64,000 bases of DNA from Verrucomicrobiaceae bacterium. Lineage in GTDB: Bacteria; Pseudomonadota; Gammaproteobacteria; Pseudomonadales; CAMLJR01. Numbering within the stretch: position 1 is the stretch's first letter; each line of letters starts with the position of its first letter. The stretch lies in the NCBI GenBank assembly GCA_028293825.1, contig JAQGNY010000040.1, forward strand, positions 186,001 through 250,000. Reading direction: 5' to 3'. Below, piece by piece: positions 12,297 through 64,000 of the stretch. Under the pieces are notes generated by a model, which was given only the letters and a program-made list of their open reading frames with translations, did not search any database and was not told where the DNA came from. Position numbers and translations under genes: made by a program.

Positions 12297-12507
12297 TTAA
12301 TGCTCCTGAACCCGCCGCTGAGGACGAGTGTTAGTTTTTGCGAAACGTATGTATCAACGCGCACTGCACTGGCAGCCTTAACAAAATGCATTCTATAAAA
12401 AAGAAAACGCACCCTTAAAAGTCGCACCGCACCGCAAACAACACATCGTTAAATGAAGACAGGCATCATGCCGAAGAGGTACTGATTTACTGCGCCGCTC
12501 GGTTCGA

Positions 12508-45992: not shown

Positions 45993-46880
45993 ATGAGTCC
46001 AAGGATTCTACTGCTTGGTAAAAATGGACAGGTTGGGTGGGAGTTACAACGCTCCTTATCTGCTATTGGGCAACTAGTCGCCTTAGACAAAAGTAGTTGC
46101 GACCTAGCTCATATCGATCAAATTCAGACTGCAATTACCAGCGCTCAGCCTGACGTGATCGTTAATGCTGCCGCCTACACGGCGGTGGATAAGGCAGAGC
46201 AGGATTCTGCTACCGCATTTCGGATAAATGCGGAAGCCGTTGCAGCCATGGCAGCTGTAGCCGCCAAACGAAATGCGTTGTTAATTCATTACTCCACTGA
46301 CTACGTTTTTGATGGCTCCAAACCAGTAGCATATGTGGAGGAGGATGTACGCAACCCACTCTCCGTGTACGGTAAAAGTAAAGCGGCGGGCGAATTGGCT
46401 ATATCGAATAGCGGCTGCAGACATTTAACTTTTCGCACTAGCTGGGTATTTGCTGCACGAGGCCTCAATTTCGCCAAAACAATGATGCGCCTTGCCAGTG
46501 AGCGAGATAGTTTGCGAGTCGTCGCGGATCAATGGGGAGCCCCAACCAGCGCAGAATTAATTGCCGATGTCACTGCGCACGCCTTACGTGAAGTTTTAGC
46601 CAACCAAGTAGAGGGTGGCCTTTATCATTTGGCCGCCAGCGGAGAAACCAGCTGGCAGGGCTACGCGAATTTCGTGCTGCAAGAAGCGGTACGGCTAGGC
46701 GCGAAATTAAAAGCTCATTCGGCAGAGCCAATCTCTACGCTCGATTACCCACTTCCAGCGACACGCCCGGCAAACTCCCGCCTAGATACCACCAAGTTAC
46801 AAAACGCATTCAACCTCGAACTGCCTGATTGGCGTTACCATACGCAGCGTATGCTGACCGAACTGCTCGGAAACTCTTGA
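45993..46880 (+). CDS. rfbD: dTDP-4-dehydrorhamnose reductase
   Basis: 295 residues. Rossmann [19 protein letters not shown] catalytic YSTDYVFDG and YGKSKAAGE. It makes dTDP-L-rhamnose, the fourth step of the pathway. First gene of the forward O-antigen operon, with rfbA overlapping its stop. No JUMPstart/ops element is visible upstream. Confidence 0.95.
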
Positions 46881-47770
46881 TGACTCAAATCTCCAGGAAA
46901 GGGATTGTGCTAGCCGGTGGCTCGGGTACGCGCCTTTATCCCGCCACATTAGCCGTATCCAAGCAATTGTTGCCGGTTTTCGACAAACCGATGATTTACT
47001 ACCCGCTCTCTACGCTGATGTTAGCGGGGATCCGCGAGATTCTAATCATCTCGACACCGCAGGATACGCCACGCTTTCAGCAGCTGCTTGGCGACGGCTC
47101 GCAATGGGGATTGCAACTGAGCTATGCAGTGCAGCGAACGCCTGATGGATTGGCGCAGGCATTTATTATTGGTGAGCGCTTTTTAGATGGCAGCTCTTGC
47201 GCCCTCGTGCTTGGCGATAACATTTTTTATGGCCACAGCTTTCAAGAGCTTCTGGGAAACGCTGTTCAACGCGATGAAGGCGCCTCGGTATTCGCGTATC
47301 ACGTACTAGACCCCGAACGTTACGGCGTTGTCGAGTTCGATGCCGGTGGCAAAGTATTAAGTCTTGAAGAAAAACCCGCAGCACCGAAGTCGAGCTACGC
47401 AGTAACCGGGCTTTATTTTTATGACCACCAAGTTGTCGAATTTGCCAAATCGTTAAAGCCATCACCGCGAGGTGAGCTGGAAATTACCGATCTAAATCGT
47501 TGCTACTTGGAGCAGGGCACTTTGTCCGTAGAGATCATGGGGCGTGGTTACGCGTGGCTTGATACTGGAACTCACGAGTCTTTACTGGACGCGTCCCAAT
47601 TTATTCAAACCATAGAGCATCGCCAAGGTTTAAAAGTTGCCTGCCCAGAAGAAATTGCGTGGCATCAGCAATGGATTAATGACGCTCAGCTCGAAAAACT
47701 CGCTGCGCCACTCTCAAAAAATGGTTATGGAAAATATTTGCTAGGCCTACTTAAGCAAAAGGTTTTTTAA
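46880..47770 (+). CDS. rfbA: Glucose-1-phosphate thymidylyltransferase
   Basis: 296 residues. [16 protein letters not shown], the nucleotide-binding loop, and [14 protein letters not shown] and EEKPAAPKS are standard. It forms dTDP-glucose for both the rhamnose and the amino-sugar branch. The ATG overlaps the rfbD stop (TGATG) and the stop overlaps rfbC (TAATG). Confidence 0.97.
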
Positions 47771-48315
47771 TGCAAGTTACACGTTTAGCTATACCCGATG
47801 TGCTGTTGATCGAACCGAAAGTATTCGGCGACGATCGCGGATTTTTTTTCGAGAGCTTCAATCAGGATAAGTTCGAAGAAGCAGTTGGCAGCACAGTATG
47901 TTTCGTACAGGATAATCATTCAAAATCTGCCAAGAATGTATTGCGCGGCTTGCATTATCAAATTCAGCATCCACAAGGAAAGCTTGTGCGAGTTGTAGCA
48001 GGTGAGGTGTTCGATGTTGCGGTCGATATTCGCAAAAACTCATCGACTTTCGGGCAATGGGTCGGCGAAAGACTTTCTGCTGAAAATAAAAAGCAAATGT
48101 GGATTCCCGAAGGGTTTGCTCATGGATTTTTGGTACTAACTGAAAACGCTGAATTTCTTTATAAGACTACCGACTACTGGTATGCAGAACATGAACGCTG
48201 CATTGCGTGGGACGACATAACACTAAATATCAACTGGAGACTTACAATAACCCCAGCACTCTCTAAAAAGGACATGCAAGGAACTACTTTTCTAAAGGCC
48301 GAGGTCTTTGCCTAA
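47770..48315 (+). CDS. rfbC: dTDP-4-dehydrorhamnose 3,5-epimerase
   Basis: 181 residues, cupin fold. DDRGFFFESFNQDKF, LRGLHYQIQHPQGKLVRV (catalytic His) and WIPEGFAHGFLVL are conserved. Third rhamnose gene; rfbB (4,6-dehydratase) is absent from the window. Shares one base with the permease gene start. Confidence 0.96.
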   Translation: MQVTRLAIPDVLLIEPKVFGDDRGFFFESFNQDKFEEAVGSTVCFVQDNHSKSAKNVLRGLHYQIQHPQGKLVRVVAGEVFDVAVDIRKNSSTFGQWVGERLSAENKKQMWIPEGFAHGFLVLTENAEFLYKTTDYWYAEHERCIAWDDITLNINWRLTITPALSKKDMQGTTFLKAEVFA

Positions 48316-49133
48316 TGCAGAATTTTTCAATATATCCGCAAGAGATGCTCACGAGCTTTTGGCGAAATCGTAGCCTTATAAATGCGCTTATAAAAAGAGA
48401 TATTTTAGGGAGGTATCGGGGCTCTTTGATGGGTATCATGTGGTCCTTTCTCAACCCCTTATTAATGCTTGCTGTTTATACATTTGTATTCAGTGTTGTT
48501 TTTAAAGCTCGCTGGGGAACTGGAAACGGTTCTAGAGCCGAATTTGCTTTGGTGTTATTTGCTGGCCTCATCGTATTCAATCTTTTTTCCGAGTGTATAG
48601 TCCGCGCGCCAAGTCTTATAGTTTCCAATACAAATTATGTAAAAAAGGTTGTTTTTCCAATTGAAATTTTGCCCTGGGTATCAATGGGGTCAGCCATGTT
48701 TCATAGCTCTGTGAGCCTGGCAATATGGTTGCTCGTGTATGTTGGTATCTTCGGAATTCCCCAATTAACGGCGTTGTTTTTACCACTGATTTTTCTGCCC
48801 CTAGTGTTTTTTATCATGGGATTATCTTGGGCGCTAGCATCTCTGGGAGTGTACTTGCGCGACGCATCACAATTTGTGGGTATACTTACTACAATAATGA
48901 TGTTCCTCTCACCGATTTTTTTTCCTGCCACAGCACTACCTGAAGAATATCGTAATTTACTTTTTTTAAATCCGTTAACCCCCGCAATTGAACAGACAAG
49001 AAACGCGCTTTATTGGGGCGAAGCTCCAAACATCACCATGCTATCCACCTATCTTATCGCCTCAATGTTAATCGCATGGGTGGGTTTTGCTTGGTTTCAG
49101 AAGACAAGAAAAGGGTTCGCAGATGTCCTGTGA
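48315..49133 (+). CDS. wzm: O-antigen ABC transporter permease (Wzm)
   Basis: 272 residues, about six membrane helices, ABC-2 permease. The N-terminal amphipathic LIKRDILGRYRGSLMGIMW and the late FLSPIFFPATALPEEYR are typical. With Wzt it exports the completed undecaprenyl-PP-linked polysaccharide across the inner membrane. Clear translational coupling on both sides. Confidence 0.93.
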   Translation: MQNFSIYPQEMLTSFWRNRSLINALIKRDILGRYRGSLMGIMWSFLNPLLMLAVYTFVFSVVFKARWGTGNGSRAEFALVLFAGLIVFNLFSECIVRAPSLIVSNTNYVKKVVFPIEILPWVSMGSAMFHSSVSLAIWLLVYVGIFGIPQLTALFLPLIFLPLVFFIMGLSWALASLGVYLRDASQFVGILTTIMMFLSPIFFPATALPEEYRNLLFLNPLTPAIEQTRNALYWGEAPNITMLSTYLIASMLIAWVGFAWFQKTRKGFADVL

Positions 49134-50505
49134 TACCACAATCCGCATCAAGGATTTAAGTAAGTGCTATCAGATTTATGATCAACCCAGAGATCGGTTA
49201 AAGCAGTTTCTGCTACCCCGAGCTCAACGCTTTCTAGGCTTGGAGCCAGAGCTTTACTATCGGGAATTTTGGGCATTACGCGATGTTTCCTTTGACGTGC
49301 GTAAAGGGGAAACCGTGGGTATCGTCGGCCGAAATGGCAGTGGAAAATCGACACTTCTCCAAATAATTTGCGGCACGCTCAATGCCACCGCTGGCTCTGT
49401 CGAGTCAGAAGGACGCATCGCAGCTCTCTTAGAACTGGGCTCCGGATTTAATCCCGAGTTTACCGGCCTTGAAAATGTTTACTTAAATGCATCAGTGCTC
49501 GGATTATCTGCGCAAGAAATCGACAAGCGACTCGACAGCATCCTTGCTTTTGCGGAAATCGGCAATTTCATTAATCAACCGATCAAAACACTCTCTAGCG
49601 GCATGGTTGTGCGCCTTGCGTTTTCGGTGGCGATCAATACCGATCCTCAAATTTTAGTAATCGACGAAGCGCTTTCCGTGGGCGATGAACTCTTCCAGCG
49701 CAAATGCTTTTCTCGCATTGCTCAGATTAAGGAGAGGGGCGCAACCATTCTGTTCGTCTCGCACTCAGGCAGCACTGTGGTGGAGCTATGTGATCGCGCC
49801 CTAGTACTCGATAAGGGGGAAACCGTATGGATGGGGCCGGCCAAGCTGGCGATCGGGAAATATCAGCGATTAATCTATGCGCCCCCCGAACGCCAAGAGG
49901 AAATTCGAAACGCAATACGTCTGGGTCAGGACGATGATACTAAAATCAACTTACCGACAACCTTGACCACAGTAGCGCCTGCGCCAGATGACTTTTACGA
50001 CCCGAATCTGATTCCGCAAAGCTTACTTAGCTATGAGGCGCAGGGCGCTCGCATCGAATCGGCGAAGATACTTACAACTTCAGGCCGACAGGTTAATTGC
50101 CTGACATGCGGCGAAACTTATCGTTATATCTATACAGTTAGGTTTTCGGAGGGGGCAACTCGCATTCGTTTCGGTATGCTAATCAAGACAATGACGGGAC
50201 TCGAGCTCGGCGGTGCAATCTCCGCCCCAACCCTGCTTGAAGGCATTCCTTATGTGAGTCCAAATACTGAAGTCACGGTGCAGTTTACATTCAAATGCAC
50301 GGCCAATCCGGGAGTTTATTTCATGAATGCGGGCGTTCTGGGCATCCGCCAGGAAGTGGAGACCTATCTGCACCGAGTGCTGGATATCGCCATGTTTAAA
50401 GTAATGCCGAAATCAAATGATACAGCGACCGCACTTGTAGACTTCGAGTGCGTACCGGAAATTACTATGTACAACCCTGCTCAGCAGGGAGCCTTAGCCA
50501 AATGA
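49123..50505 (+). CDS. wzt: O-antigen ABC transporter ATPase with Wzt-type C-terminal domain
   Basis: 460 residues from the ATG at 49123, overlapping wzm by 11 bp. Walker A GRNGSGKSTLLQII, signature LSSGMVVRLAFS, Walker B LVIDEALSVGDELF. About 200 residues follow the ATPase (from about 260), ending with a beta-rich domain typical of Wzt C-terminal carbohydrate-binding modules (GLELGGAISAPTLLEGIPY). In O9a-type systems this domain recognises the chain's capped end, so export waits for termination; the same is expected here. Confidence 0.93.
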   Translation: MSCDTTIRIKDLSKCYQIYDQPRDRLKQFLLPRAQRFLGLEPELYYREFWALRDVSFDVRKGETVGIVGRNGSGKSTLLQIICGTLNATAGSVESEGRIAALLELGSGFNPEFTGLENVYLNASVLGLSAQEIDKRLDSILAFAEIGNFINQPIKTLSSGMVVRLAFSVAINTDPQILVIDEALSVGDELFQRKCFSRIAQIKERGATILFVSHSGSTVVELCDRALVLDKGETVWMGPAKLAIGKYQRLIYAPPERQEEIRNAIRLGQDDDTKINLPTTLTTVAPAPDDFYDPNLIPQSLLSYEAQGARIESAKILTTSGRQVNCLTCGETYRYIYTVRFSEGATRIRFGMLIKTMTGLELGGAISAPTLLEGIPYVSPNTEVTVQFTFKCTANPGVYFMNAGVLGIRQEVETYLHRVLDIAMFKVMPKSNDTATALVDFECVPEITMYNPAQQGALAK

Positions 50506-53500
50506 ATAATCTTAAAAAGAAAAATATTGTCATTGTGCTTGGCATGCACAGGAGCGGTACGAGCGCAATCACACGCTGCTTAGAGCTATTTGGGATTGGG
50601 CTTGGCGAAAACCTTCAACCCGCCAATTTCGACAACCCTAAAGGCTTTTGGGAAGATCGAGAGTGCCTGCAAATTAACGAGGAGCTACTAAGTCACCTAG
50701 GATCTGCCTATGACCAGCTCGGCCTGCTACCAGATCGACTTGCCAATGATTCGTGCATTTCAGATTTAAAAATCCGCGCGTCACAAATAGTTTTGAAAAA
50801 AGTCGACAAGAACGGTGGCTCCTGGGGTTTTAAGGATCCGCGCTCTTGCCGCCTGGTACCCTTCTGGAAGGAAGTGATCGGATCTGCCGGTTTTGAAGCC
50901 ACCTATATCATCGCACTGCGCAACCCTTTAAGCGTGGCGGCATCACTTAGAACCAGAAATAACATTCCGTATGAAAAGAGTTATTTCTTGTGGCTTCAGC
51001 ATATGCTGCCGGCATTACGTGAAACTCGCGACGCACGCCGTTTGATTATTGACTTCGATCTACTGCTCGACAATCCAATGCGCGAGCTGCAAAGAATTTC
51101 ATCGCATTTGGGACTTCCACAAACAGACATTGAGAATCCTGCTGTCAAGGCATACATGGATGAATTCCTGGACAAGCAACTCAGCCACACTCGCTTCTCG
51201 CTAAATGATCTCAAGCTCGATAGTCGTGCGCCTTCCGATGTTGTCGCAACTTATCAATTGCTTCATTCGTCCGCGCAAGACGCAGTCGACGCCGACGAAC
51301 TCCGAACCCTGACGGAAACACTCTATAAAAGGCTCGAAGATTTTGCCCCAGCCTTCGATTACTCGAATCAACTGGAAGAAGAACGAGCCTCGCTTTACAC
51401 ATCGATCGTTAATCAAGAGGGTCGTATTGCCGCATTGAACCAGCAGATTGCAGATATCAATAAGCAGGTGGCTGACCTTTATGCGGGAATCGGAGTACGA
51501 GATGGTCAAATAGCGACGCTGCATCAGGGTGTAATCGAACGGGACTCTCAGATTGCACAGCTGCATCAAGAAGTGATTGAGCGTGACGGTGTGATTTCCA
51601 GCACGCACTTGACTGTCAGTGAACGCGACAAAATTGTCAGCGAGCTGCACACGGAAATTGTCGATCTCAATGCCCAGATTGCAAAACTGCAAAGATCAGA
51701 ATTTATTAATCAACGAGAAATTGAACAACTAAAAGAAAGCATCGAAAAAAGGGAAAGCCGCTCCTTTGAGTTAAGTCAGCTGGTTGATGAACACAAAACA
51801 CTGGCCCAAGACCTGCAAACCAGTCTCGCCGATCTCCAGGATCAAATCCATCAGCTAACTGCCAATATCGCGCAGCGTGAAAACGATTTGGTCACGCTAG
51901 CAAATCACGTAGCCGATCATGAAAGTCGCGCTCGCAATCATACAACGCTGCTTGCGGAACGCGACCGGCAAGTTGGGGATCGGAACATAAGTCTCGCTGA
52001 GAGCGAAAGTGAGCTAGCTACGCTAACGCAGTATTTGGCCGAGTCTAAAGCGCTCACCCGCAATCTCATCACGACGCTTGCGGAGCGCGATCAGGCAATC
52101 CACGAGCTAGGCGCTAATCTCATCGCCCTAAAGGACGAGATTGCCACGCAAGAAAAAAACATGATAGATCGCGAAATCGCCGCCGACCTACTCAAAGCTC
52201 AGATTTCGAATCAAGAGAAATTAATCAGCACCTCCAAAGACATCAACAATCAACAGCTGGCAGAAATCGAAAAGCTGCAAAGAATCGTATTGCAGCTCAA
52301 CGAAAATATTTTTACCGTTCTGTCCAGCAGATCCTGGCGCATCACTAGCCCTTTCCGCGCTTTGCGTCGACTGCCTAATAAGGCGAGCAGCTCGATACGA
52401 AAAACGACATCGGATACCGCGCGCTCCCTTTGGAGGCGCTCTCCAATTCGCACTGAAACTAAACTGACACTCAAGCACTCACTGTTCAAAAACCTACCAT
52501 TTATTTTTTCGAGGACCGTTGCATACCGCGACTGGAAAGCCTTTGAAAGCTTTTCGCCCGATATAGCCCGGCCTCATCACCAACTCAGCGCCCCCTCCAT
52601 GCCGCACTCAACAGCGGACCGACAACCGGCACTGGTTCGACTAATCGCTTTTTATCTGCCCCAATTTCACCCTATTCCCGAAAATGACGAATGGTGGGGC
52701 AAAGGCTTTACCGAATGGACAAACGTCACACGCGCCAAACCCCAGTTTGTCGGCCACTATCAGCCGCACATACCAGCGGACCTTGGGTTCTATGACCTGA
52801 GGGTTGCAGATGTACAGCGACAGCAAGTCGCTCTTGCCAAAGAATATGGGTTAGGCGGCTTCTGCTTTTATTTTTATTGGTTCGGTGGTCAACGGTTACT
52901 CGAAACTCCAATCAAGCAATATCTGGACAATCCAGCCCTGGATCTTCCATTTTGCTTGTGCTGGGCAAACGAAAACTGGAGCAGGCGCTGGAATGGGTTG
53001 GACCAAGACATTCTCATCGGGCAAAATCATTCAGCGGAAGACGATGAAGCCTTCATCGAATATATCTCTAGCTACCTTCTGGATCCACGCTACATTCGTA
53101 TAGATGGAAAACCATTGCTACTGGTGTATCGGCCCAGCCTTCTACCCAGTGCAAAAGAGACTGCAGAGCGGTGGCGCAACTGGTGTCGCCAGAACGGGTT
53201 AGGTGAAATTTACCTAGCGTATACACAATCGTTTGAAACAGCTGATCCGAAAAACTATGGATTCGACGCTGCAATCGAATTTCCCCCAAACAATAGCGCA
53301 CCACCCGTTGTTACCAATGAAGTTGAAATAATTGACGAAGGCTTTTCCGGTATCGTCTATGACTGGAAAGTATTCGTCGAGCGCAGCAGATCGTACACGG
53401 CACCTTCATACACTTTATTCCGCAGTGTTTGTCCCTCTTGGGACAACACCGCAAGGCGTCCAAATGGGGGCGCTGTATTCTTAAACTCCTCTCCGGAGCT

Positions 53501-55646
53501 TTACCAGGAGTGGTTGAGCAATGCCTGCAAAGACACCATAACTAGATTCTCAAACCCGGACGAACGTATCATTTTTGCAAACGCGTGGAACGAGTGGGCT
53601 GAAGGCGCTCATCTTGAGCCCGATCAACAGTATGGCCACGCCTGGCTAGAGGCCACACGAAACGCACTAGTCAATCAAAGCGATGACCAGAATCTGCGCC
53701 GCATTATTGTGGTTACGCATGATGCCTACCCACACGGTGCGCAACTTCTAGCACTGAATATTGCACGCAACCTATCCGAATCCTTCGGCTTCTCAGTTGA
53801 AACAATTTGTTTGGGAGACGGCCCGCTCAAGGACCAGTTCGCGCAAATTGGCACTTTCCACGATCTAGCCGGCGTTGATCAACAGGGTAACGAGGCAAAA
53901 GAGCTTGCGCTAAATCTACAAAAATGCGGGTTCAAGTCTGCCATTGTCAATACAACGGTGGCCGGCAAGTTCTTACAAACATTGCACTACGCTGGGTTTC
54001 GATGCGTCTCACTAATTCACGAATTGGCTGGAGTGATTCAATCAAACTCTCTTGAAGAGAATGCAAGAATAATTGGTCAATTCGCCGATAAGATCGTATT
54101 TCCAGCAGAACAAGTACGACAATCTTTTGAAACCTTTTCTTCAATCGAGGAATGTCGCGCCGTTGTACGCCCGCAAGGTGTGTACAAAAAAAATAGGCTG
54201 CTAAATAGCCGGCAAGATTCGAGGGAAATACTTCGACAGCGGTTAGGGTTGCCACAAAGCGCAAAAATTGTCATCGGCGTTGGATTTGCCGATCATCGCA
54301 AGGGGATTGATCTATTTGTTGAGACCTGTCTGAAAACAGCCGAAACAGACAACTCGGTTCATTTCGTTTGGGTTGGTCATTGGCATGCAGCAATGCGCGG
54401 TAAAATCGATCATTTACGAGATACCAATCCAGATATAAAAGCTAATTTTCATCCGGTGGGCCTAATTGAAGATACCGACTTATATTATGCCGGCGCTGAT
54501 CTATACGCACTCACCTCTCGCGAAGATCCGTTTCCGTCAGTGGTATTGGAAGCTATGGATGCAGGCCTTCCAATCGTGAGCTTTGCTGAAGTTACAGGTT
54601 GTGATCAAGCTGTAATACGCATCGGCGGAGAGCTAGTTAAAGCATTCGATGTTGATAGTTTTTCAGAAAAAATCATTGGAATATTACGCGATAGCGACAA
54701 GCAGCTGGAGATTGGCAATGCAGGAAAGCTGCTTATACAAAAAGAATTCAGCTTTTCGCGCTACCTTTTCGACCTTCTCGGTTTCGCCAATCATGCGCTT
54801 AAACGCGTTTCTGTCATCGTCCCAAACTACAACTATGCTCGATACATACAAAGCAGACTGCAATCAATCCTGAATCAGACTTATCCGATATATGAATTGA
54901 TAATTCTTGATGACTGCTCAAACGACGATAGTGATGAAAAGATTCGCGCCTTCTTAGAAAATTGCCCAATTGCTGCCAAATACATAAGAAACACAAGCAA
55001 CTCCGGATCGGTATTTGCTCAGTGGCGCAAAGGTGTCGAGCTGGCTACCGGTGATTATGTATGGATTGCCGAAGCAGACGATCTAGCAGAACCCGAATTT
55101 GTAGAAACAACTTTGTCGGGATTTGAAGACCCGTCGGTTGTTCTAAGTTATTGCGAAAGTAAGCAAGTTGATGGCAATGGAAACTTAATTACCGGAAACT
55201 ATCACGCTTATGTTTCAGATCTTGGCGTTGAGCACTGGCAAAATGCATACACCAACGATGGCCATTCGGAAATACAAAACTTCTTGTCTATTAAGAATAC
55301 AATTCCGAATGTAAGTGCGGTTTTAATGCGCCGTGAAAATTTGCATCGGGTTCTGATCGAACACTACGAAGATATTAGCAAATACCGCATTGCCGGTGAT
55401 TGGAAAGCCTATCTTTATTTACTCGATGGCCAACGGCTCGCCTATACGCCATCCGCTCTTAACCTCCATAGGCGCCATGATGGTAGCGTCACTATAAGCT
55501 CTTTCGGAAAATCTCAACTCGATGAGATTACAGAGATTCAGCAATGGGCGACCAAGAAATACAAATGCGAGGCAAGCACTATGCTCAAAATAGAATGTTA
55601 CGTAAAGCAACTGTGCACTCAGTTTAATATTGAGAGCAGCTTATGA
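50502..55646 (+). CDS. Giant fusion: sulfotransferase - coiled coil - WbsX-like - GT4 - GT2
   Basis: 1714 residues from the ATG at 50502 (ATGA overlap with wzt). Order: sulfotransferase (about 8-285; PAPS loop GMHRSGTSA at 14-22 and RNPLSVAAS at 140-148); a long coiled coil (about 290-605) that includes 14-residue repeats such as RDSQIAQLHQEVIE; a basic linker with SSRSWRITSPFRALRR; a WbsX/GH99-like domain (about 711-1050; AFYLPQFHPIPEND, WWGKGFTEW); a GT4-type transferase (about 1065-1430); and a GT2 domain (about 1435-1714; VSVIVPNYNYARYIQ). No membrane segment is evident, so it is a cytoplasmic enzyme. Inference: polymerase plus length-ruler plus sulfate cap. Confidence 0.88.
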   Translation: MNNLKKKNIVIVLGMHRSGTSAITRCLELFGIGLGENLQPANFDNPKGFWEDRECLQINEELLSHLGSAYDQLGLLPDRLANDSCISDLKIRASQIVLKKVDKNGGSWGFKDPRSCRLVPFWKEVIGSAGFEATYIIALRNPLSVAASLRTRNNIPYEKSYFLWLQHMLPALRETRDARRLIIDFDLLLDNPMRELQRISSHLGLPQTDIENPAVKAYMDEFLDKQLSHTRFSLNDLKLDSRAPSDVVATYQLLHSSAQDAVDADELRTLTETLYKRLEDFAPAFDYSNQLEEERASLYTSIVNQEGRIAALNQQIADINKQVADLYAGIGVRDGQIATLHQGVIERDSQIAQLHQEVIERDGVISSTHLTVSERDKIVSELHTEIVDLNAQIAKLQRSEFINQREIEQLKESIEKRESRSFELSQLVDEHKTLAQDLQTSLADLQDQIHQLTANIAQRENDLVTLANHVADHESRARNHTTLLAERDRQVGDRNISLAESESELATLTQYLAESKALTRNLITTLAERDQAIHELGANLIALKDEIATQEKNMIDREIAADLLKAQISNQEKLISTSKDINNQQLAEIEKLQRIVLQLNENIFTVLSSRSWRITSPFRALRRLPNKASSSIRKTTSDTARSLWRRSPIRTETKLTLKHSLFKNLPFIFSRTVAYRDWKAFESFSPDIARPHHQLSAPSMPHSTADRQPALVRLIAFYLPQFHPIPENDEWWGKGFTEWTNVTRAKPQFVGHYQPHIPADLGFYDLRVADVQRQQVALAKEYGLGGFCFYFYWFGGQRLLETPIKQYLDNPALDLPFCLCWANENWSRRWNGLDQDILIGQNHSAEDDEAFIEYISSYLLDPRYIRIDGKPLLLVYRPSLLPSAKETAERWRNWCRQNGLGEIYLAYTQSFETADPKNYGFDAAIEFPPNNSAPPVVTNEVEIIDEGFSGIVYDWKVFVERSRSYTAPSYTLFRSVCPSWDNTARRPNGGAVFLNSSPELYQEWLSNACKDTITRFSNPDERIIFANAWNEWAEGAHLEPDQQYGHAWLEATRNALVNQSDDQNLRRIIVVTHDAYPHGAQLLALNIARNLSESFGFSVETICLGDGPLKDQFAQIGTFHDLAGVDQQGNEAKELALNLQKCGFKSAIVNTTVAGKFLQTLHYAGFRCVSLIHELAGVIQSNSLEENARIIGQFADKIVFPAEQVRQSFETFSSIEECRAVVRPQGVYKKNRLLNSRQDSREILRQRLGLPQSAKIVIGVGFADHRKGIDLFVETCLKTAETDNSVHFVWVGHWHAAMRGKIDHLRDTNPDIKANFHPVGLIEDTDLYYAGADLYALTSREDPFPSVVLEAMDAGLPIVSFAEVTGCDQAVIRIGGELVKAFDVDSFSEKIIGILRDSDKQLEIGNAGKLLIQKEFSFSRYLFDLLGFANHALKRVSVIVPNYNYARYIQSRLQSILNQTYPIYELIILDDCSNDDSDEKIRAFLENCPIAAKYIRNTSNSGSVFAQWRKGVELATGDYVWIAEADDLAEPEFVETTLSGFEDPSVVLSYCESKQVDGNGNLITGNYHAYVSDLGVEHWQNAYTNDGHSEIQNFLSIKNTIPNVSAVLMRRENLHRVLIEHYEDISKYRIAGDWKAYLYLLDGQRLAYTPSALNLHRRHDGSVTISSFGKSQLDEITEIQQWATKKYKCEASTMLKIECYVKQLCTQFNIESSL

Positions 55647-56374
55647 TGACGAGCGAAAAAGCAATATTTTCGCATGAAGGCTATTGCCCAATATGCGAAC
55701 GCAACGTTGAGTTTCGTGCAAATCACACCTGGTTCCGCGATCATCTCATTTGCTCCGGCTGCGGATCAATTCCACGCGAACGCGCGCTCTTTAAAGTAAT
55801 TGCTGAACACTTTCCAAATTATCGTGATCTCAAAATACACGAATCCTCTCCTGGCGGGCGAGGCGCAAGCATTAAGCTGCATAGGGAGTGCGCAGGTTAC
55901 TCGGCTTCGCAGTTCTATCCGAAGATAGAGCGAGGAAATATTAATCGCACAAGTGGCTATCGATGCGAAGATCTTGAGCACCTAACATTCGAAAACGAAA
56001 CGTTTGACTTATTTATAACCCAGGATGTCCTGGAACATATTTTTCATCCGGAAAAAGCGTTCATAGAGATTGGCAGAGTTTTAAAAAGTGGCGGCGCCCA
56101 TATTTTTACTACCCCTCTAGTGAATAAGGCCAAAAAAAGCGAGCGCTGGGCCTCATTAAGCGACAAACAAGAAATAATCTACCATCACGAACCAGAGTAT
56201 CACGGGAATCCGGTAGATCCGAACGGCGCGCTAGTAACAATGCATTGGGGCTACGACATTGCCACTCTCATCACTAAAGAAGCGCATATGCCGACCACTA
56301 TCATTGAAATCGATAACATAAATCTTGGCATCCGCGCAGAATACATTGAGGTTTTAGCTAGCTGGAAACTTTAG
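55643..56374 (+). CDS. SAM-dependent methyltransferase with N-terminal zinc ribbon
   Basis: 243 residues; ATGA overlap with the giant gene. YCPICERN and LICSGCGSIPRERAL give a four-Cys zinc-ribbon. The Rossmann methyltransferase core shows a loose motif I, then FDLFITQDVLEHIFHPEKAF and LKSGGAHIFTTPL. It probably methylates a sugar or sugar-linked precursor in the O-antigen pathway. Its last 24 codons are duplicated 1.16 kb downstream. Confidence 0.82.
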   Translation: MMTSEKAIFSHEGYCPICERNVEFRANHTWFRDHLICSGCGSIPRERALFKVIAEHFPNYRDLKIHESSPGGRGASIKLHRECAGYSASQFYPKIERGNINRTSGYRCEDLEHLTFENETFDLFITQDVLEHIFHPEKAFIEIGRVLKSGGAHIFTTPLVNKAKKSERWASLSDKQEIIYHHEPEYHGNPVDPNGALVTMHWGYDIATLITKEAHMPTTIIEIDNINLGIRAEYIEVLASWKL

Positions 56375-56400
56375 ATCGATGCCAATATCTTTTGCTTGGA
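56303..56400 (+). repeat. 98-bp direct repeat, copy 1
   Basis: Covers the 3' end of the methyltransferase gene and 26 bp beyond it. About 93% identical to the copy at 57461, with both in the same orientation. Confidence 0.95.
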
Positions 56401-56478
56401 GTTATTTTTGGCACGACGGACTAACAAATTATCGGTTGGACATGAGTTAACTAAATAACAAAACATTGGAGAGTGGGA

Positions 56479-57309
56479 ATGCTTTCAAAAGACGAATGGT
56501 TTGAAACTATTTGCGCTAGTTATGCGAGCCCTCCCGTTGTGTTTAACGGAAGAAGTCTTCCCGGCTTTCCGTCCGATTTAATCCAATCTAATACCACCGG
56601 CCAAGCAGGCGTAGATACTTTAAAGGAAGCCTTTGTTTTCTATCAGGACTGTATTAATAACTTTAAAAGCCTGGGAGCGGGCATAGAGCCGCACCATCAT
56701 CTGCTCGACTTCGGGGTAGGCTGGGGACGGATAGCTAGATTTTTTTTAAAGGAACTTCCGCTAGAAAATATTCACGGATTGGACGTAATGAATGAGTTTG
56801 TTGAAATATGTCGACAGACCTTCGGCAGCGATAATTTCAACGTCACTACACCATTCCCACCCACACTTCTGCCGGCTGAAAAATACAATTTTATTGTAGG
56901 GTACTCCGTATTTTCCCACTTATCCGAGGAGGCATGTGCAAGTTGGATGCAAGAATTTCATCGCTTACTTGCACCCGGCGGAATGATTGCCCTAACTACG
57001 CGGGGACGCAACTTCTTTGATTTCTGCGAAGGATTGAAGGGAGAGGGTCATACAGGGTATTTAGATGCTCTCTCTAGAATGTTTGAAGACTTCTCCGCGG
57101 CCCGAGCGCGATACGATAGAGGGGAATGCGTCCACTCCAATAGTTATGGAGTAAGTGGCGGAGGCGCGATGACTTCCGATTTTTACGGCGAAACATTTAT
57201 ACCTGAGCCTTACGCAAAGGCCGCATATTCTCAATTTTTTATGCTAGAAAAATTTCTTTTTGATCCGTCTCGACAGACGCACCCAATAATGTTTTTTCGA
57301 AAGAAATGA
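56479..57309 (+). CDS. SAM-dependent methyltransferase
   Basis: 276 residues from the ATG at 56479, with GGAG seven bases upstream. Motif I is LLDFGVGWGRIARFF, followed by IHGLDVMNEFVEI, then FIVGYSVFSHLSEEACASWM and LLAPGGMIALTT. Of unknown sugar or lipid substrate. It is flanked by the 98-bp direct repeats, so it may have been inserted as a unit. Confidence 0.83.
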   Translation: MLSKDEWFETICASYASPPVVFNGRSLPGFPSDLIQSNTTGQAGVDTLKEAFVFYQDCINNFKSLGAGIEPHHHLLDFGVGWGRIARFFLKELPLENIHGLDVMNEFVEICRQTFGSDNFNVTTPFPPTLLPAEKYNFIVGYSVFSHLSEEACASWMQEFHRLLAPGGMIALTTRGRNFFDFCEGLKGEGHTGYLDALSRMFEDFSAARARYDRGECVHSNSYGVSGGGAMTSDFYGETFIPEPYAKAAYSQFFMLEKFLFDPSRQTHPIMFFRKK

Positions 57310-57587: not shown

Positions 57588-59165
57588 ATGGTACTCATAA
57601 CCAAGCGGATAGACGCGCTAGCTGCCGGCCTGCTTATTAACTTAAGACAAAACCTCTATTTAGTTGCAGTCTTAGCTGCGATCTTATTGGCGGCTTATGG
57701 ATTTGAACTGTTCAATCTCAACCTGACAATTGACGAGGAGGTTCACGCATTTTCGTCTCAAACTGATCGATGGATAGAGCAGGGTCGTTGGGGAATGTAT
57801 TTTTTAAATACACTATTGATTCCTCAGCCAGTCATCCCTTTCGTCCCGCTGTTTACTGCATTAGCATTTCATCTTTTTGCGATTTTGTTGTTGCTAAACA
57901 GCTGGGGTGTTGAATCTAAATTAGAGAAGGTCTTGGTGGGTGGCATAGGGGTTGCCTATCCCGGCATGGCCTATATGTATACTTTTAGTACGATTAATTT
58001 TGGCATTGGAATAGGTCTTTTCTTCGTAGCTTTCGCTTTATTTATATATGTAAAAGCAGAGGGAAGATTCAAGCTGTTAGCTGCGCTACCCGCAGCACTG
58101 TCTATTGCCATCTATCAGGGCTTTACCGTGGCGCTGGTAATAGCCTTCCTAATTCAATTTATTTCGGTTGAGTTGAAATCCAATGACCGCAACATAAAAT
58201 TCAAAAACTTATTTAGCATCACTTTGATTGCTCTATTGTCAGTATCAATTTACTACACAGTTCAAAAGACGCTTCTCTGGCTGACCGCTACCAATATCGG
58301 ATACGTAGATACATTTTTTGACCTAGGGTACCTGCTCGCAAACTTTGGCGCTGTCTCTGACCAAGTATTTGCTACTATGCTGCGGGTATATTCTGGATCT
58401 CCCTCTATCTACGGAACCCCAATAAGCATACTTACAGTTACTGTCGTGGTGGCATTGGCTGGCACGACGCTGAGCTTAATTCGCTGCAAGCTATCCATTG
58501 CCAGCAAGATATTTATTGCACTTCTATGTTGCCTTCTCATCGTGCTGCCGTTTGCGTCAGGTTTTTTCATGCGCGGAACTATAGCGATGCGGTTTCTGGT
58601 CAGTTTGCCGATCGCCTTTTCAGGGTTGATTATGCTTGGAATGCAAAGGCAATCCAGAGGGGTAATATTATTTGCCGCATCGCTCGTAACAATTTGTGTA
58701 TTTCAGTTCGCGACCTCTACAAATGCCTTGTTTTCCTCATCCGGTCTAGCATTGGAGGCTGATCGCGTTTTAGCCGGGATGCTTCTTGACCGTATTGCCG
58801 ATGCCAAGGGCCTTGCAGGAACCAAAGAATTGAAATACTTGGAGGTGGTTGGGTTTATTGAACGGCCACCTACGAGACTAATACCAAAATCTGAAACTTT
58901 TGGGGCTTCATTTTTTGAATGGGATCAGGGAAACGTTAATCGGATTCTGCTGTTTTTGAAAACACTTGGATATCAAGACCTACAGGCTTTACCCCTTAAA
59001 GACAGAAGCGAAATGATGGAGCAAGCTACGGCAATGCCGAATTGGCCGGATAAAGAGAGCGTGAGAGTATTTGGGACCGCAGTGATAGTAAAGTTTGGGC
59101 CATATTCCTATGTACAAACCCAAGCTATTTGTGGGGCGGTTAAAAATCCTATTTATTGTCATTAA
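57588..59165 (+). CDS. GtrII-like integral membrane glucosyltransferase
   Basis: 525 residues, about ten membrane helices and a C-terminal periplasmic domain of roughly 110 residues. The sequence after the first helix, LNLTIDEEVHAF, holds the acidic residues of the GtrII (glucosyl transferase II) family. These transfer a sugar from undecaprenyl phosphate to the O-antigen in the periplasm. GtrA and GtrB partners lie downstream, interleaved with amino-sugar genes. Confidence 0.8.
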   Translation: MVLITKRIDALAAGLLINLRQNLYLVAVLAAILLAAYGFELFNLNLTIDEEVHAFSSQTDRWIEQGRWGMYFLNTLLIPQPVIPFVPLFTALAFHLFAILLLLNSWGVESKLEKVLVGGIGVAYPGMAYMYTFSTINFGIGIGLFFVAFALFIYVKAEGRFKLLAALPAALSIAIYQGFTVALVIAFLIQFISVELKSNDRNIKFKNLFSITLIALLSVSIYYTVQKTLLWLTATNIGYVDTFFDLGYLLANFGAVSDQVFATMLRVYSGSPSIYGTPISILTVTVVVALAGTTLSLIRCKLSIASKIFIALLCCLLIVLPFASGFFMRGTIAMRFLVSLPIAFSGLIMLGMQRQSRGVILFAASLVTICVFQFATSTNALFSSSGLALEADRVLAGMLLDRIADAKGLAGTKELKYLEVVGFIERPPTRLIPKSETFGASFFEWDQGNVNRILLFLKTLGYQDLQALPLKDRSEMMEQATAMPNWPDKESVRVFGTAVIVKFGPYSYVQTQAICGAVKNPIYCH

Positions 59166-59333
59166 GTTGCTCATAATATCGATATTAGCGACCCTAATAC
59201 CATACAGAGCTTTTTAACGGCGGCTTTGATAAAGCTGGGCGCTGTAATGCAGCGCTTTATTGAGATGATCCAATTTCAAACTTCGCAACTTGGAGCGGGT
59301 TAGTAGGCGTTAATTGAATGGGTAAATATAGCG

Positions 59334-60431
59334 ATGTTAATGATTAACGATTTGTTAAGACATAATGGAAGCATTTCCGAATACCTATCATCTGCTGTAA
59401 CCAAAGTCATTGAAAGCGGCTGGTATGTGCTCGGCAACGAAGTCAAAGAATTTGAACGCGAATTTGCTTCATATTGCGAGACCAATCATTGCGTTTCGGT
59501 TGCCAATGGAACGGACGCGTTAGAACTAGCCCTTAGCGCACTGGACATCGGCGAAGGGGGGAAAGTTATTACCGTAGCTAATGCGGGAGCGTATAGCACA
59601 ACAGCAATTCGCGCCGTTGGCGCGGAGCCCGCTTACGTCGATATCGACATAGATACAATGCTGCTTGATCTTGCGCATGTAAAAAAATCACTAAATTCCG
59701 AAATTTCTGCTGTGGTGGTTACACACTTATATGGTCGAGCAGCCCCAGTGGAGGAGGTAATCGCTATGGCCGATAAGTACAACATTCCCGTTATAGAAGA
59801 TTGCGCTCAAGCACATGGCGCCACTCTCAACGGAAAACGAGTTGGCTCTCTAGGAGCTTTCGGCTGCTTTAGCTTTTATCCAACTAAGAATTTGGGTGCA
59901 TTAGGTGATGGTGGGGCAATTACAACCAATGACCCGCTGCTAGCCAAGCGTACTCAAATGCTCCGGCAGTATGGTTGGCAGAATAAATATGAAATTGCGC
60001 TCAACGGTGGCCGTAATAGCCGGCTAGATGAAATGCAAGCAGCTATTCTGCGAATCAAGTTGCCGCATTTGGATTCTTGGAACCAGCGCCGCCTTCTGAT
60101 CTGTCAGCGCTACACCCAAGGTATTCGCCACCCATTGATAACGTTGCCCCTCTTTGCGCCCGGCAGCTACGTCGGACATTTGTTTGTAGTGCGATCACAG
60201 CAGCGAGATAGTTTACGCGATCATCTAAAGCGAAATAACATCATGAGTGAAATCCATTACCCCATTCCAGATTATCGGCAACCTGCATTTTCGGGGCAGT
60301 TCATGGGCGTACTATTACCAATAACTGAGAGAGTTTGTAACGAGATTCTCACCCTGCCATGCTTCCCAGAAATGACGAATGCAGAAATACAAAATGTGAT
60401 TGATACTGCGAATAATTGGGTCGCGGCGTGA
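59334..60431 (+). CDS. DegT/DnrJ/EryC1 sugar aminotransferase (FdtB/QdtB-like)
   Basis: 365 residues. PLP lysine is Lys185 in SFYPTKNLGALGDGGAI, with IPVIEDCAQAHGATLNG just before. It fits the 3-aminotransferase that adds an amino group to dTDP-3-oxo-6-deoxyhexose to give dTDP-Fuc3N or Qui3N. The partner ketoisomerase/acetyltransferase lies two genes downstream. Confidence 0.88.
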   Translation: MLMINDLLRHNGSISEYLSSAVTKVIESGWYVLGNEVKEFEREFASYCETNHCVSVANGTDALELALSALDIGEGGKVITVANAGAYSTTAIRAVGAEPAYVDIDIDTMLLDLAHVKKSLNSEISAVVVTHLYGRAAPVEEVIAMADKYNIPVIEDCAQAHGATLNGKRVGSLGAFGCFSFYPTKNLGALGDGGAITTNDPLLAKRTQMLRQYGWQNKYEIALNGGRNSRLDEMQAAILRIKLPHLDSWNQRRLLICQRYTQGIRHPLITLPLFAPGSYVGHLFVVRSQQRDSLRDHLKRNNIMSEIHYPIPDYRQPAFSGQFMGVLLPITERVCNEILTLPCFPEMTNAEIQNVIDTANNWVAA

Positions 60432-61375
60432 ACTCACTAATTATTCCCGTCTACAAGAACGCTGAGAATATTCCTTCGCTGCTTGCAGCGCTACGCATAT
60501 TGGATACTCGAATCGCCGATTTGGAAGTCGTTTTTGTGGTAGATGGGAGTCCAGATGACAGCGTAAGCCTGCTTAATAAGCTGCTACCTGTAGCGGAGCT
60601 AAGATCACAGCTATTGCTTCTCTCACGAAATTTTGGCTCATATCCAGCAATTCGAGCCGGCTTGGCAGCAGCGCGGGGGAACCTATTCGCAGTAATGGCG
60701 GCAGACCTACAGGAGCCGCCCGAGTTAGCGATAACTCTTTTTGACGCGTTAGAAACCGAGGCGCTGGACGTTGTAATTGCTACACGAGAGTCTCGCGCCG
60801 ACCCATTATTATCGAGACTTGCAGCCAACCTCTTCTGGAAGTTCTATAAAAAATTCGTAGTTCCCGAAATCCCTATTGGTGGTGTAGATGTATTCGGTTG
60901 CAATCGCATTTTTCGCGATCATCTTTTGCAACTTGAAGAATCACACTCCTCGCTGGTAGCGCTTCTATTCTGGATGGGCTTTCGTAGGAAAGTGGTGCCC
61001 TATACTCGGCTAGCGAGGCAACATGGAAAGTCTGCCTGGACATTTAAAAAAAAATACATCTATTTCAAAGACAGTATTTTTTCATTTACTGATATGCCTA
61101 TAAAAGTTCTCGCGAGGGTTGGCACTCTTGGTATTTTATTTTCCGCAGTTATGGCGCTGATTGTATTACTGGGCAAATTAACTGGCTGGGTAAGTGTGCC
61201 CGGCTATTCGGCCACGGTTCTAACAATTATTTTCTTTGGAGCGCTTAATTTGCTTGGATTAGGAATCATTGGGACCTACGCGTGGCGGACCTATGAAAAC
61301 ACAAAGCACCGCCCCTCGGCTTTAGTGATGTCGCGCGTAGAGTTTCAACCTTCCAAACAAAATCGTCAGGTGTAG
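60428..61375 (+). CDS. gtrB: GtrB-like polyprenyl-phosphate glycosyltransferase
   Basis: 315 residues from the GTG at 60428, whose GTGA overlaps the aminotransferase stop; a TTG upstream would add four residues. GT2 core [28 protein letters not shown] and AADLQEPPE, then two C-terminal helices after KSAWTFKKK. It loads a sugar onto undecaprenyl phosphate for flipping by GtrA and use by GtrII. Placement between Fuc3NAc-type genes leaves open whether the sugar is glucose. Confidence 0.88.
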
Positions 61376-61377
61376 TC

Positions 61378-62319
61378 ATGAATTATTTTGTTCACCCTTC
61401 CGCCCTTTGCGAATCCGAAATGATCGGCGAGAGCACACGAATTTGGGCATTTTCTCATGTACTGCCAAATGCAAGAGTCGGTTCAGGCTGCAATATTTGT
61501 GATCACGTATTTATTGAAAATGACGTAGTGATCGGTGATCGTGTAACGATTAAATGCGGTGTCCAAGTATGGGATGGGCTAACGCTGGAGGATGATGTTT
61601 TCATTGGCCCTAATGTTACCTTTACTAATGACCCATACCCTCGAAGCAAACAATATCCCACAAAATTTTCGAAAACATTAGTACGACGCGGCGCCTCAAT
61701 TGGAGCCAACGCCACAATATTACCTGGCATCACAATAGGGATGCAGGCCATGGTTGGTGCTGGCTCTGTGGTCACCCATGACGTTCCACCTTATGCAAAG
61801 GTAGTTGGCAACCCGGCAAGAATCATTGGCTACACTCATAGCAGCGATCAAAGCTCATTGACCACCGAAATAGCTCAATCCTCCACCATACTCGGCAGTC
61901 ATTCAACCACAGTAAGCGGTGTCGGCGTTTATGAGCTTTCGCTTGTAAAAGATCTGCGCGGCAATCTGTCGGTTGGAGAGTTTGAGCGCAGCGTACCATT
62001 TTCTCCGCGACGTTACTTTTTGGTGTTCGACGTGCCAAGTGGCAAGGTGCGTGGTGAACATGCACATAAAGAATGTCACCAGTTCCTAATTTGCATAAAA
62101 GGGTCATGCGCAGTCGTTGCTGATGATGGACAGCGTCGGCAGGAAATATTACTTGATCGGCCCACCAAGGGAGTGCATTTGCCGCCAATGACTTGGGGTG
62201 TCCAATATAAATATTCTGCGGATGCAGTATTACTGGTGTTTGCTTCAGACTATTACGATTCGAATGACTACATCCGCGAGTATGATCATTTTATGGAATT
62301 GATTAATGCGCCCAAGTGA
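61378..62319 (+). CDS. Fused sugar N-acetyltransferase and 3,4-ketoisomerase (WxcM-like)
   Basis: 313 residues in two parts. Residues 1-155 are a left-handed beta-helix acetyltransferase with hexapeptide repeats ([43 protein letters not shown]). From about 180 comes an FdtA/QdtA cupin, with [34 protein letters not shown] and [15 protein letters not shown]. In one chain it isomerises dTDP-4-oxo-6-deoxyglucose and acetylates the amino sugar, giving dTDP-Fuc3NAc or -Qui3NAc with the aminotransferase. Two bp after gtrB. Confidence 0.9.
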
Positions 62320-62695
62320 TTTCTTTCTTATCACCGACAAACGCTTTTTGAATTTTGTTTTATTTGGCGGACTGAATACCCTTACAACGTATGCCCTGTA
62401 TTTATTGTTGAGCTGTGTGATGCATTATCAGCTGGCTTATTTGATCGCATATCTCGTGGGGATTATTATTGCTTATTTACTAAACCTAAATTTAGTTTTC
62501 AATAGTAGCTCCTCGCTTAGAAAAGTTTTGCTTTATCCATTTATTTACCTCATCCAATATTTTCTTGGTGCAGGTCTGATGTATTTGATGATAACTATTT
62601 TCTACTTATCTCATACTGTTGCCCCGCTTATTACTATAGCTTTATTGCTACCTGTTTCTTTTTTTTTGAACAAACGAATATTGGTTAACTTATAA
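62306..62695 (+). CDS. gtrA: GtrA-like flippase
   Basis: 129 residues, four membrane helices: [19 protein letters not shown] is the conserved first one. It is thought to flip undecaprenyl-phosphate-sugar to the periplasm. The ATG lies inside the end of the preceding gene (14-bp overlap). Last gene of the cluster before IS remains. Confidence 0.9.
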
Positions 62696-63226: not shown

Positions 63227-64000
63227 TGACCTGCCCCCACGAGTAGTGCCACTGACCTTCTAGTAAAGTCCGTGGTTGGCATTAAAGTATTTCCTGTTGG
63301 GATTCATTACTCAGTCCGATGCGATAGCGTGCAGCGAACTCAGCGGGCGTTAAATAATTCAAGGTGCTGTGCGGTCGACATTCATTGTAATCGCGTCGCC
63401 ACTCCGCAACGATTGATCGTGCTTGTGGCAGTGATGTAAACCAATGATCGTTTAAGCATTCATCGCGAAACTTGCCGTTGAAGCTTTCGATAAACGCATT
63501 TTGTATCGGCTTGCCTGGCTCAATCAATTTCAATTGCACGCCGTGCTGATACGCCCATTGATCGAGAGCCTTGCACGTGAACTCAGGCCCCTGATCCGTC
63601 GAATGGCGCGCGGATAACCGCGAAATTGGGCCGCCTGATCCAGCACACGCGAAACATAAATGCCCGAGATGCTGTGATCGACGACCAGGTCGACGGACTC
63701 CTTGGTAAAGTCATCGACGATCGTCAGGCACTTCAGGCGTCGGCCATTCGATAAAACATCCATCACAAAATCCATCGACCACACAGCGTTAGGTTGGGCT
63801 GGCGTGCACAACGGTTCGCGCTCGACTGCAACCCGTTGGCGCTTGCGACGGCGCCGCACGCCGAGATCGGCTTCCTGATATAAACGAAACACACGCTTGT
63901 GATTGGCCTCGACGCCTTCGCGCCGCAACAACACGTGAATACGGCGATAACCGAAACGTCGCCGCTCCGCCGCCAACTCGACCATGCGCTGTTGCAATTG
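63227..64000 (-). mobile_element. IS3-family insertion sequence, one end; runs off right edge
   Basis: Begins with TGACCTGCCCCCAC, a terminal sequence type seen in IS3-family elements, and carries a minus-strand orfB. It was inserted into the degraded transposase described before it. The other end and any orfA lie past 64000. Confidence 0.8.
63282..64000 (-). pseudogene. IS3-family transposase orfB, frameshifted and incomplete
   Basis: Two overlapping frames (63530 to the edge, and 63282-63539) form one orfB: HTH_21-type RRFGYRRIHVLLRREG, integrase WSMDFVMDVL (first D), VDDFTKESVD, then a break, and the final NAFIESFNGKFRDECLND (E), HSTLNYLTPAEF. The break, near 63605, is a single missing base just before the second Asp (expected IRTDQGPEF). 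It could be mutation or sequencing error. The N-terminus is outside. Confidence 0.87.

Follow-up and report, generated by a model that had tools for sequence, protein, structure and literature searches.

A GtrB branch linked to Fuc3NAc genes suggests lipid-linked transfer of an amino sugar to an ABC-exported O-antigen

Gtr-type genes interleaved with amino-sugar genes

The stretch of DNA analyzed here (the window; 64,000 nucleotides (nt), positions 186,001 to 250,000 of contig JAQGNY010000040.1 from a Verrucomicrobiaceae bacterium assembly that GTDB places in the Gammaproteobacteria) carries five genes on its forward strand, in the order GtrII, FdtB, GtrB, FdtD and GtrA (57588-62695; open reading frame (ORF) and Pfam checks). 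The first encodes a GtrII-type transferase of the glycosyltransferase C (GT-C) class, 525 amino acids (aa) long (57588-59165; Glucos_trans_II, PF14264, 94 bits against a cut-off of 30). It is followed by an FdtB/QdtB-type 3-aminotransferase of deoxythymidine diphosphate (dTDP) sugars (59334-60431; DegT_DnrJ_EryC1, 344.7 bits) and a GtrB-type polyprenyl-phosphate sugar transferase (60416-61375; Glycos_transf_2, 69.5 bits). The fourth gene encodes an FdtD/WxcM-like fusion (61378-62319) of an N-terminal hexapeptide N-acetyltransferase and a C-terminal 3,4-ketoisomerase (FdtA, "WxcM-like, C-terminal", PF05523, 184.1 bits), and the last a GtrA-type small membrane protein, presumably a flippase (62306-62695; PF04138, 66.8 bits).

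A gap of 168 nt separates GtrII from FdtB, and the last four genes are densely packed. The ORF list starts GtrB at TTG 60416; the likelier start is GTG 60428, which overlaps the FdtB stop codon as GTGA (60428-60431). GtrB ends 2 nt before FdtD, and the ATG of GtrA (62306) falls within FdtD, which ends at 62319, giving an overlap of 14 nt. The initial annotation had described a GtrII-GtrB-GtrA set interleaved with genes for 3-acetamido-3,6-dideoxygalactose (Fuc3NAc) or its gluco isomer (Qui3NAc), with the aminotransferase and the acetyltransferase-isomerase overlapping gtrB and gtrA; the coordinates, Pfam matches and packing all bear this out. Scans for promoter-like and terminator-like sequences gave no excess over shuffled sequences (3 versus a mean of 10.9, and 6 versus 6.1, respectively).

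Searches against the Protein Data Bank (PDB) agree with these identities. FdtD has its best full-length match in 4mzu, a "WxcM-like protein" (412 bits, residues 5-308), which we take to be the Shewanella FdtD for Fuc3NAc. FdtB matches 7b0d, "Glutamine--scyllo-inositol transaminase" (326 bits), and QdtB 3frk (317.1 bits). The best match of GtrB is "glycosyltransferase sll0501", 5ekp (159 bits), presumably the Synechocystis GtrB (GtrB-Syn), followed by ArnC entries at 102 bits.

The same genome encodes two further GtrB-like genes, which score 118 and 90 bits against the GtrB of the window. One adjoins a second GtrA and matches sll0501 at 294 bits, compared with only 159 for the window GtrB. The other is most similar to ArnC (421 bits, 9hwj), and the aminotransferase beside it matches "UDP-4-amino-4-deoxy-L-arabinose--oxoglutarate aminotransferase" (ArnB) at 489 bits. 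Since the genome thus also holds a glucose-type GtrB/GtrA pair and an ArnC, the window GtrB is a third, separate one.

The interleaved arrangement is conserved

We searched 369 genomes of the class with FdtD and found full-length fused relatives in the genome of origin and in five others, two of which carry FdtB, GtrB, FdtD and GtrA together (loci L043, which also has GtrII, and L044). A GtrB search of the same genomes gave matches at 1e-20 or better in 130, and five genomes, that of the window among them, had best scores between 696 and 226 bits, the lowest coming from a partial match; the next scores were 162 bits or less. A further search of named genomes, made with an alignment of four GtrBs, contributed the best 80 of 356 confirmed relatives. 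Together with the window (L040) and loci L043, L044, L054 and L168, these form a set of 85 loci, hereafter the clade; 61 control loci comprise the 59 next-best class matches by score, from a longer list, and the two paralogs of the same genome.

A ketoisomerase lies within 5 kb of GtrB in 78 of the 85 clade loci and in none of the 61 controls, and the same holds for a hexapeptide acetyltransferase in 72 versus none. An FdtB-type aminotransferase is found within this distance in 72/85 versus 2/61, one of the two being the ArnB beside ArnC, and GtrA in 65/85 versus 32/61. These contrasts are to be read with some reserve, because the neighbor models were derived from clade loci and may be less sensitive on controls, and some contigs are short in both sets; for the same reason, the control count of GtrII (0/61), whose model also came from clade loci, was not used as evidence. 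FdtB, GtrB, ketoisomerase/FdtD and GtrA are consecutive in 53 of the 85 clade loci, FdtB and GtrB are adjacent in 69, and GtrB adjoins the ketoisomerase or acetyltransferase in 76. According to the initial annotation, a Gtr set normally stands by itself and transfers glucose. This is only partly right: three-component systems for N-acetylglucosamine (GlcNAc) and galactose are published (PMC8035078), and the arrangement with amino-sugar genes recurs widely.

Some loci depart from the common layout. In Roseateles puraquae (L132, 7791-11453), a clade GtrB with the motif AAD stands with GtrA and no detected Fuc3N genes in the locus, so that the sugar donor would be supplied from elsewhere or be a different one. 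In Legionella nautarum and L. drozanskii (L101 and L121; approximately 7983-12373), GtrB and FdtD precede a 750-aa membrane protein, and neither GtrA nor FdtB was detected in these loci. A plasmid search with GtrB returned four records, two at 51-52% identity. One of these is the Azospirillum argentinense plasmid AbAZ39_p5 (L236, 8001-13787), with GtrB, a WxcM-like gene, an aminotransferase, a hypothetical gene of 2232 bases and, downstream, an EamA-family transporter; its annotation lists no GtrA, and a swap of flippase is possible. The other is an unannotated Phyllobacterium record.

The clade GtrBs form one branch with an altered donor-site motif

In a GtrB tree of 146 rows (built by a quick method with no bootstrap, and leaving out L168, whose GtrB of 163 aa lies at a contig end), the 84 clade GtrBs form a single branch with a Shimodaira-Hasegawa-like approximate likelihood ratio (SH-aLRT) support of 99 and a length of 1.43. 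Presence of a ketoisomerase or acetyltransferase at any position within the locus requires only 3 changes on this tree, compared with a shuffled mean of 47.7, and none of 500 shuffles was as low. By record title, the clade spans Pseudomonadota, Actinomycetota, Planctomycetota, Acidobacteriota, Myxococcota, Verrucomicrobiota, Gemmatimonadota and others, with several metagenome bins among them. Two control rows, L175 and L190, carry SQD, a third type of motif, and adjoin the clade in the tree, possibly as a long-branch artifact.

GtrA segregates along with GtrB. A tree of 89 GtrA rows separates clade from control with 3 changes (shuffled mean 26.6; 0/500 as low), based on few columns and with the bootstrap unsettled. 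It holds one row per locus; rows were dropped where GtrA lay more than 3 kb from GtrB or its frame exceeded 220 aa, and frames above 150 aa were trimmed to their last 135 residues.

The study of GtrB-Syn assigns binding of a metal, together with uridine diphosphate (UDP), to the DXD motif (Asp94, Asp96), names Asp157 as putative catalytic acid and proposes that Arg122 and Arg200 hold the lipid phosphate (PMC4728340). The window GtrB does not match this DXD motif: AAD (residues 95-97 of the listed ORF) replaces it, with alanine in place of the first aspartate, while the equivalents of Asp157, Arg122 and Arg200 are kept. In GtrB-Syn numbering, position 94 is alanine in 83 of 84 clade rows and threonine in one, compared with aspartate in 59 and serine in 2 of the 61 controls. 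Position 96 is aspartate in all 84 clade rows, and position 98 is likewise invariant wherever a residue is present. Asp157, Arg200 and Arg290 are each found in 85/85 rows and Arg122 in 83/84.

Part of this count could stem from selection, because the loci had been scanned for [AG]VMAADLQ or E[VA]VFVVDG. The second alternative occurs in 53 of the 80 scanned loci, of which 52 also carry AADLQ and 11 lack the full first pattern; the motif is therefore not solely a product of the search. The ArnC paralog (L041) retains DADLQ, so that an amino sugar alone is insufficient to explain the change. We infer that the AAD motif reflects a dTDP-sugar donor.

A predicted route via lipid-linked Fuc3NAc

Taken together, these comparisons make it quite likely that the five genes constitute a three-component system with undecaprenyl-phosphate-linked Fuc3NAc (Und-P-Fuc3NAc) as donor, which adds side branches to the O-antigen in the periplasm after export by an ATP-binding cassette (ABC) transporter. 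The genome encodes a complete set for dTDP-Fuc3NAc (RmlA, RmlB, 3,4-ketoisomerase, 3-aminotransferase and N-acetyltransferase), with rmlB located away from the window (C11:29270-30307; 467 bits, above the cut-off). For the substrates, lipid intermediate, flipping and acceptor, we infer the following steps. The C-terminal domain of FdtD would convert dTDP-4-keto-6-deoxyglucose to the 3-keto galacto isomer, FdtB would add a 3-amino group to the keto sugar, and the N-terminal domain of FdtD would acetylate the product to dTDP-Fuc3NAc in the cytoplasm. GtrB would then place Fuc3NAc, rather than glucose, onto undecaprenyl phosphate, and GtrA would flip the resulting lipid-linked Fuc3NAc across the inner membrane to its periplasmic side. 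After Wzm/Wzt had exported the O-polysaccharide backbone, which probably contains rhamnose, GtrII would transfer Fuc3NAc to it as a side branch.

The initial annotation had suggested that the undecaprenyl-linked sugar may be the amino sugar itself. Comparison favors this, given a GtrB branch linked to Fuc3N genes, its AAD motif, the co-segregating GtrA and the parallel with Xanthomonas described below.

That annotation left the sugar as Fuc3NAc or Qui3NAc, and the ketoisomerase bears on that choice. PDB entry 4zu7 is a QdtA with arginine for Tyr17 and histidine for Arg97, two sites that we assume to govern the stereochemistry of the product. At these sites the window ketoisomerase has arginine and glycine, resembling 4mzu and unlike FdtA, which has histidine. 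Among 81 clade ketoisomerase frames, the first site is arginine in 80, and in those the second site is glycine in 69, alanine in 7, cysteine in 2 and serine in 2, never arginine; that of L168 has a gap at the first site and arginine at the second. The first site does not discriminate among frames of the class, because it is arginine in all 14 other class frames, whose second site is arginine in 9, glycine in 3 and histidine in 2. The aminotransferase is undecisive for the sugar, because FdtB matches QdtB. That match (317.1 bits to 3frk) and the glycine where FdtA has histidine would suit the same three-component route with Qui3NAc as its sugar; the Arg/Gly pair in the window, its near-uniform counterpart in the clade and the best full-length match of FdtD, 4mzu, speak against it, and we regard Qui3NAc as unlikely. 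Short of proof, the site residues and the 4mzu match lean toward Fuc3NAc.

The transferase and its putative acceptor

In an alignment of 13 GtrII sequences (the window and 12 clade loci), an IDEE motif stands out, with Asp49 and Glu51 nearly invariant. This acidic motif sits after the first membrane helix of the window GtrII, as in GT-C transferases, and a C-terminal residue, Lys502, is lysine in 11/13 and arginine in 2/13. Glutamate and lysine residues at places that are comparable, as judged by eye, are reportedly critical in the GtrII proteins of Shigella and Pseudomonas donghuensis (PMC8509367). The AlphaFold model of GtrII (predicted local distance difference test 88.2, predicted template modeling score 0.88) superposes on an archaeal oligosaccharyltransferase (Z 15.1, root mean square deviation (rmsd) 6.4, 350 residues aligned) and on ArnT with undecaprenyl phosphate (5f15; Z 13.5, rmsd 6.3, 397 aligned), with the caution, issued by the tool itself, that Z values below about 13 may be common among helical proteins. 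All 50 realigned structural matches listed are, by title, GT-C or GT-C-like proteins or complexes containing one.

The genes upstream would fit an exported polysaccharide as acceptor. On the same strand lie the dTDP-sugar genes rmlD, rmlA and rmlC (45993-48315), of which RmlA also feeds dTDP-Fuc3NAc, followed by wzm (the ABC-2 membrane part) and wzt (an ATPase with a Wzt_C domain), which encode an O-polysaccharide ABC exporter (48315-50505). Next come a 1732-aa multi-domain protein with sulfotransferase-like, WbsX, GT1 and GT2 domains (50448-55646), likely involved in backbone synthesis, and two methyltransferases assigned by Pfam (55643-57309). For an O-antigen backbone enzyme, the domain combination of the 1732-aa protein is unusual. 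Periplasmic branching after ABC export, as the initial annotation proposed, fits these upstream rml, wzm and wzt genes. An insertion sequence (IS)-like element with integrase-core domains occupies the end of the contig on the reverse strand (63282-64000), and the O-antigen cluster may extend past it.

Lipid-linked Fuc3NAc might instead decorate another target, such as the core, a glycoprotein or a further glycan. The clade has members in Actinomycetota and Planctomycetota, and the neighboring large membrane proteins vary from locus to locus; for these reasons the acceptors probably differ. The window set stands in one run with the rml, wzm and wzt genes upstream of it, which argues against another target here. 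The O-antigen of Xanthomonas campestris consists of a rhamnan bearing acetamidofucose (FucNAc) branches, and Tn5 mutants in wxcK and wxcN lose the FucNAc from the O-antigen, gain rhamnose and keep the rhamnan, although these insertions may be polar, according to the authors (PMC4878081). A target other than the exported O-polysaccharide thus appears improbable for the window set.

Opposing evidence and remaining alternatives

Several observations weigh against the proposed route. In three of the five other class genomes with a fused FdtD, no GtrB was detected within the 19 kb fetched; FdtD therefore also works without GtrB. Within the clade, no FdtB passed the test in 13/85 loci, in one of which (L102) it is present but frame-split. 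Ketoisomerase and acetyltransferase are both missing from loci L132 and L138, L093 and L133 lack a ketoisomerase, and in L065, L074 and L168 the only ketoisomerase lies beyond 5 kb. GtrA is missing within 6 kb in 20/85 loci, and a hydropathy count found no same-strand small membrane protein as a substitute for it in these 20. A GtrII-type transferase occurs in only 15/85. In GtrB-Syn, changes at positions 132, 140, 212 and 216 abolish activity and position 136 is also needed (PMC4728340). The clade residues at the first four are Ser (60 rows), Trp (84), Lys (83) and Leu/Met (80), compared with Lys (55), Tyr (57), Leu (50) and Ala (53) in the 61 controls, and position 136 differs in part, with Ser in 54 clade rows and Ala in 30. 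Because these four positions mostly differ, the GtrB-Syn mechanism is not transferable residue by residue. Foldseek returned no PDB match for GtrII at an E value of 0.001 or better, the top row being AftD at 6.4e-3. Cross-talk with the second GtrB/GtrA pair of the genome may occur, and the contig stops two bases past the window end (250,000), just after the gene set. Finally, in the literature searched, mainly titles and abstract openings with few subscription papers, we found no demonstration of Und-P-Fuc3NAc, no biochemistry of this GtrB and no description of its branch.

One alternative is classical glucosylation, in which GtrB would use UDP-glucose and GtrII would add glucose, with Fuc3NAc incorporated by a cytoplasmic transferase and the adjacency resulting from shuffling of O-antigen islands. 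O-antigen glucosylation is the best-known role of GtrB, GtrA and Gtr[type] (PMC11127046, PMC8509367), and the product of the Synechocystis GtrB is undecaprenyl-phosphate-linked glucose (PMC4728340). In addition, the 1732-aa protein would supply cytoplasmic transferase domains, and FdtD occurs without a detected GtrB in the three class genomes mentioned. Against glucosylation stand the recurrence of the interleaving across many phyla, the complete lack of ketoisomerase neighbors among control GtrBs, the different donor-site motif, and the presence in the genome of another GtrB/GtrA pair closer to the glucose enzyme; we consider it very unlikely. Chance adjacency of Gtr and Fuc3N genes is ruled out by the neighbor counts of clade versus control loci.

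Turning to spread, a large membrane protein of some sort lies within 6 kb of GtrB in 72/85 clade loci by a crude hydropathy count, which fits a constant donor module with a varying transferase. We think it reasonably probable that a widespread, hitherto unassigned GtrB branch, with the motif AADLQEP and without the first aspartate of DXD, is dedicated to dTDP-Fuc3NAc and moves as a single donor cassette together with FdtB/FdtD and a GtrA group of its own, paired with varying membrane transferases, so that the donor module would stay constant while the acceptor changes. Origin from a phage serotype-conversion system was rejected: 88 phage records match GtrB, each below 60% identity at its best place, and at 30.7-33.1% among the 15 matches listed.

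If this holds, an AADLQEP-type GtrB beside FdtB/FdtD would provide a sequence rule for predicting Fuc3NAc side branches from genomes, and some Gtr-like sets annotated as glucosylation systems may instead add an amino sugar. Fuc3NAc branches bear on serotype and phage adsorption and have been proposed as the receptor of a Xanthomonas phage (PMC12573098). Donor choice could also be studied with this naturally occurring GtrB branch, whose metal-binding motif is altered.

Comparison with known systems

The published three-component systems transfer glucose, galactose, GlcNAc or pentofuranoses (PMC11127046, PMC8035078). Similar to the GtrA-GtrB-Gtr[type] glucosylation systems of Shigella and Salmonella, the window set comprises GtrB, GtrA and a GT-C transferase, with matches to PF04138 and PF14264. 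In contrast to them, it contains sugar-nucleotide synthesis genes, its GtrB belongs to a different branch, which has AAD in place of DXD, and its donor is probably dTDP-Fuc3NAc. The ArnC/ArnT system for 4-amino-4-deoxy-L-arabinose (L-Ara4N) likewise passes an amino sugar via undecaprenyl phosphate to a GT-C enzyme, and the GtrII model superposes on ArnT; it differs in that the ArnC of the same genome keeps DADLQ and in that ArnT uses lipid A as acceptor (PMC12826051). In the post-polymerization systems of Klebsiella and Citrobacter, side sugars are also added in the periplasm to ABC-exported O-antigens, but these sugars are galactose or pentofuranoses, the latter using another activating enzyme and a multidrug and toxin extrusion (MATE) flippase (PMC11127046). 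The GtrA cluster of Actinoplanes is a different one (PMC13390465), and for Aeromonas the source passages describe a WxcM gene but no GtrA or GtrB (PMC4483657).

The closest parallel is wxcK-wxcO, region 3 of the Xanthomonas wxc O-antigen cluster, whose order of functions, judged from the published annotation rather than from sequences, matches that of the window. In X. hortorum, wxcK encodes a transaminase, wxcL a glycosyltransferase and wxcM a bifunctional protein, followed by wxcN and wxcO, and loss of these genes leads to phage resistance (PMC12573098). WxcM is described as an acetyltransferase/isomerase, WxcN as a "sugar transferase" and elsewhere as a small membrane protein, and WxcO as a "sugar translocase" (PMC12573098, PMC4878081). 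According to a review, the Xanthomonas mutants point to a distinct mechanism of side-chain synthesis (PMC8042644), and the source passages do not call wxcK-wxcO a Gtr-type three-component system (PMC12573098, PMC4878081). The window adds a GtrII-type transferase upstream of FdtB. Thus, the window set is of the wxcK-wxcO kind, which recurs widely, and what may be new is a separate GtrB branch with an altered DXD motif that has spread as a donor cassette.

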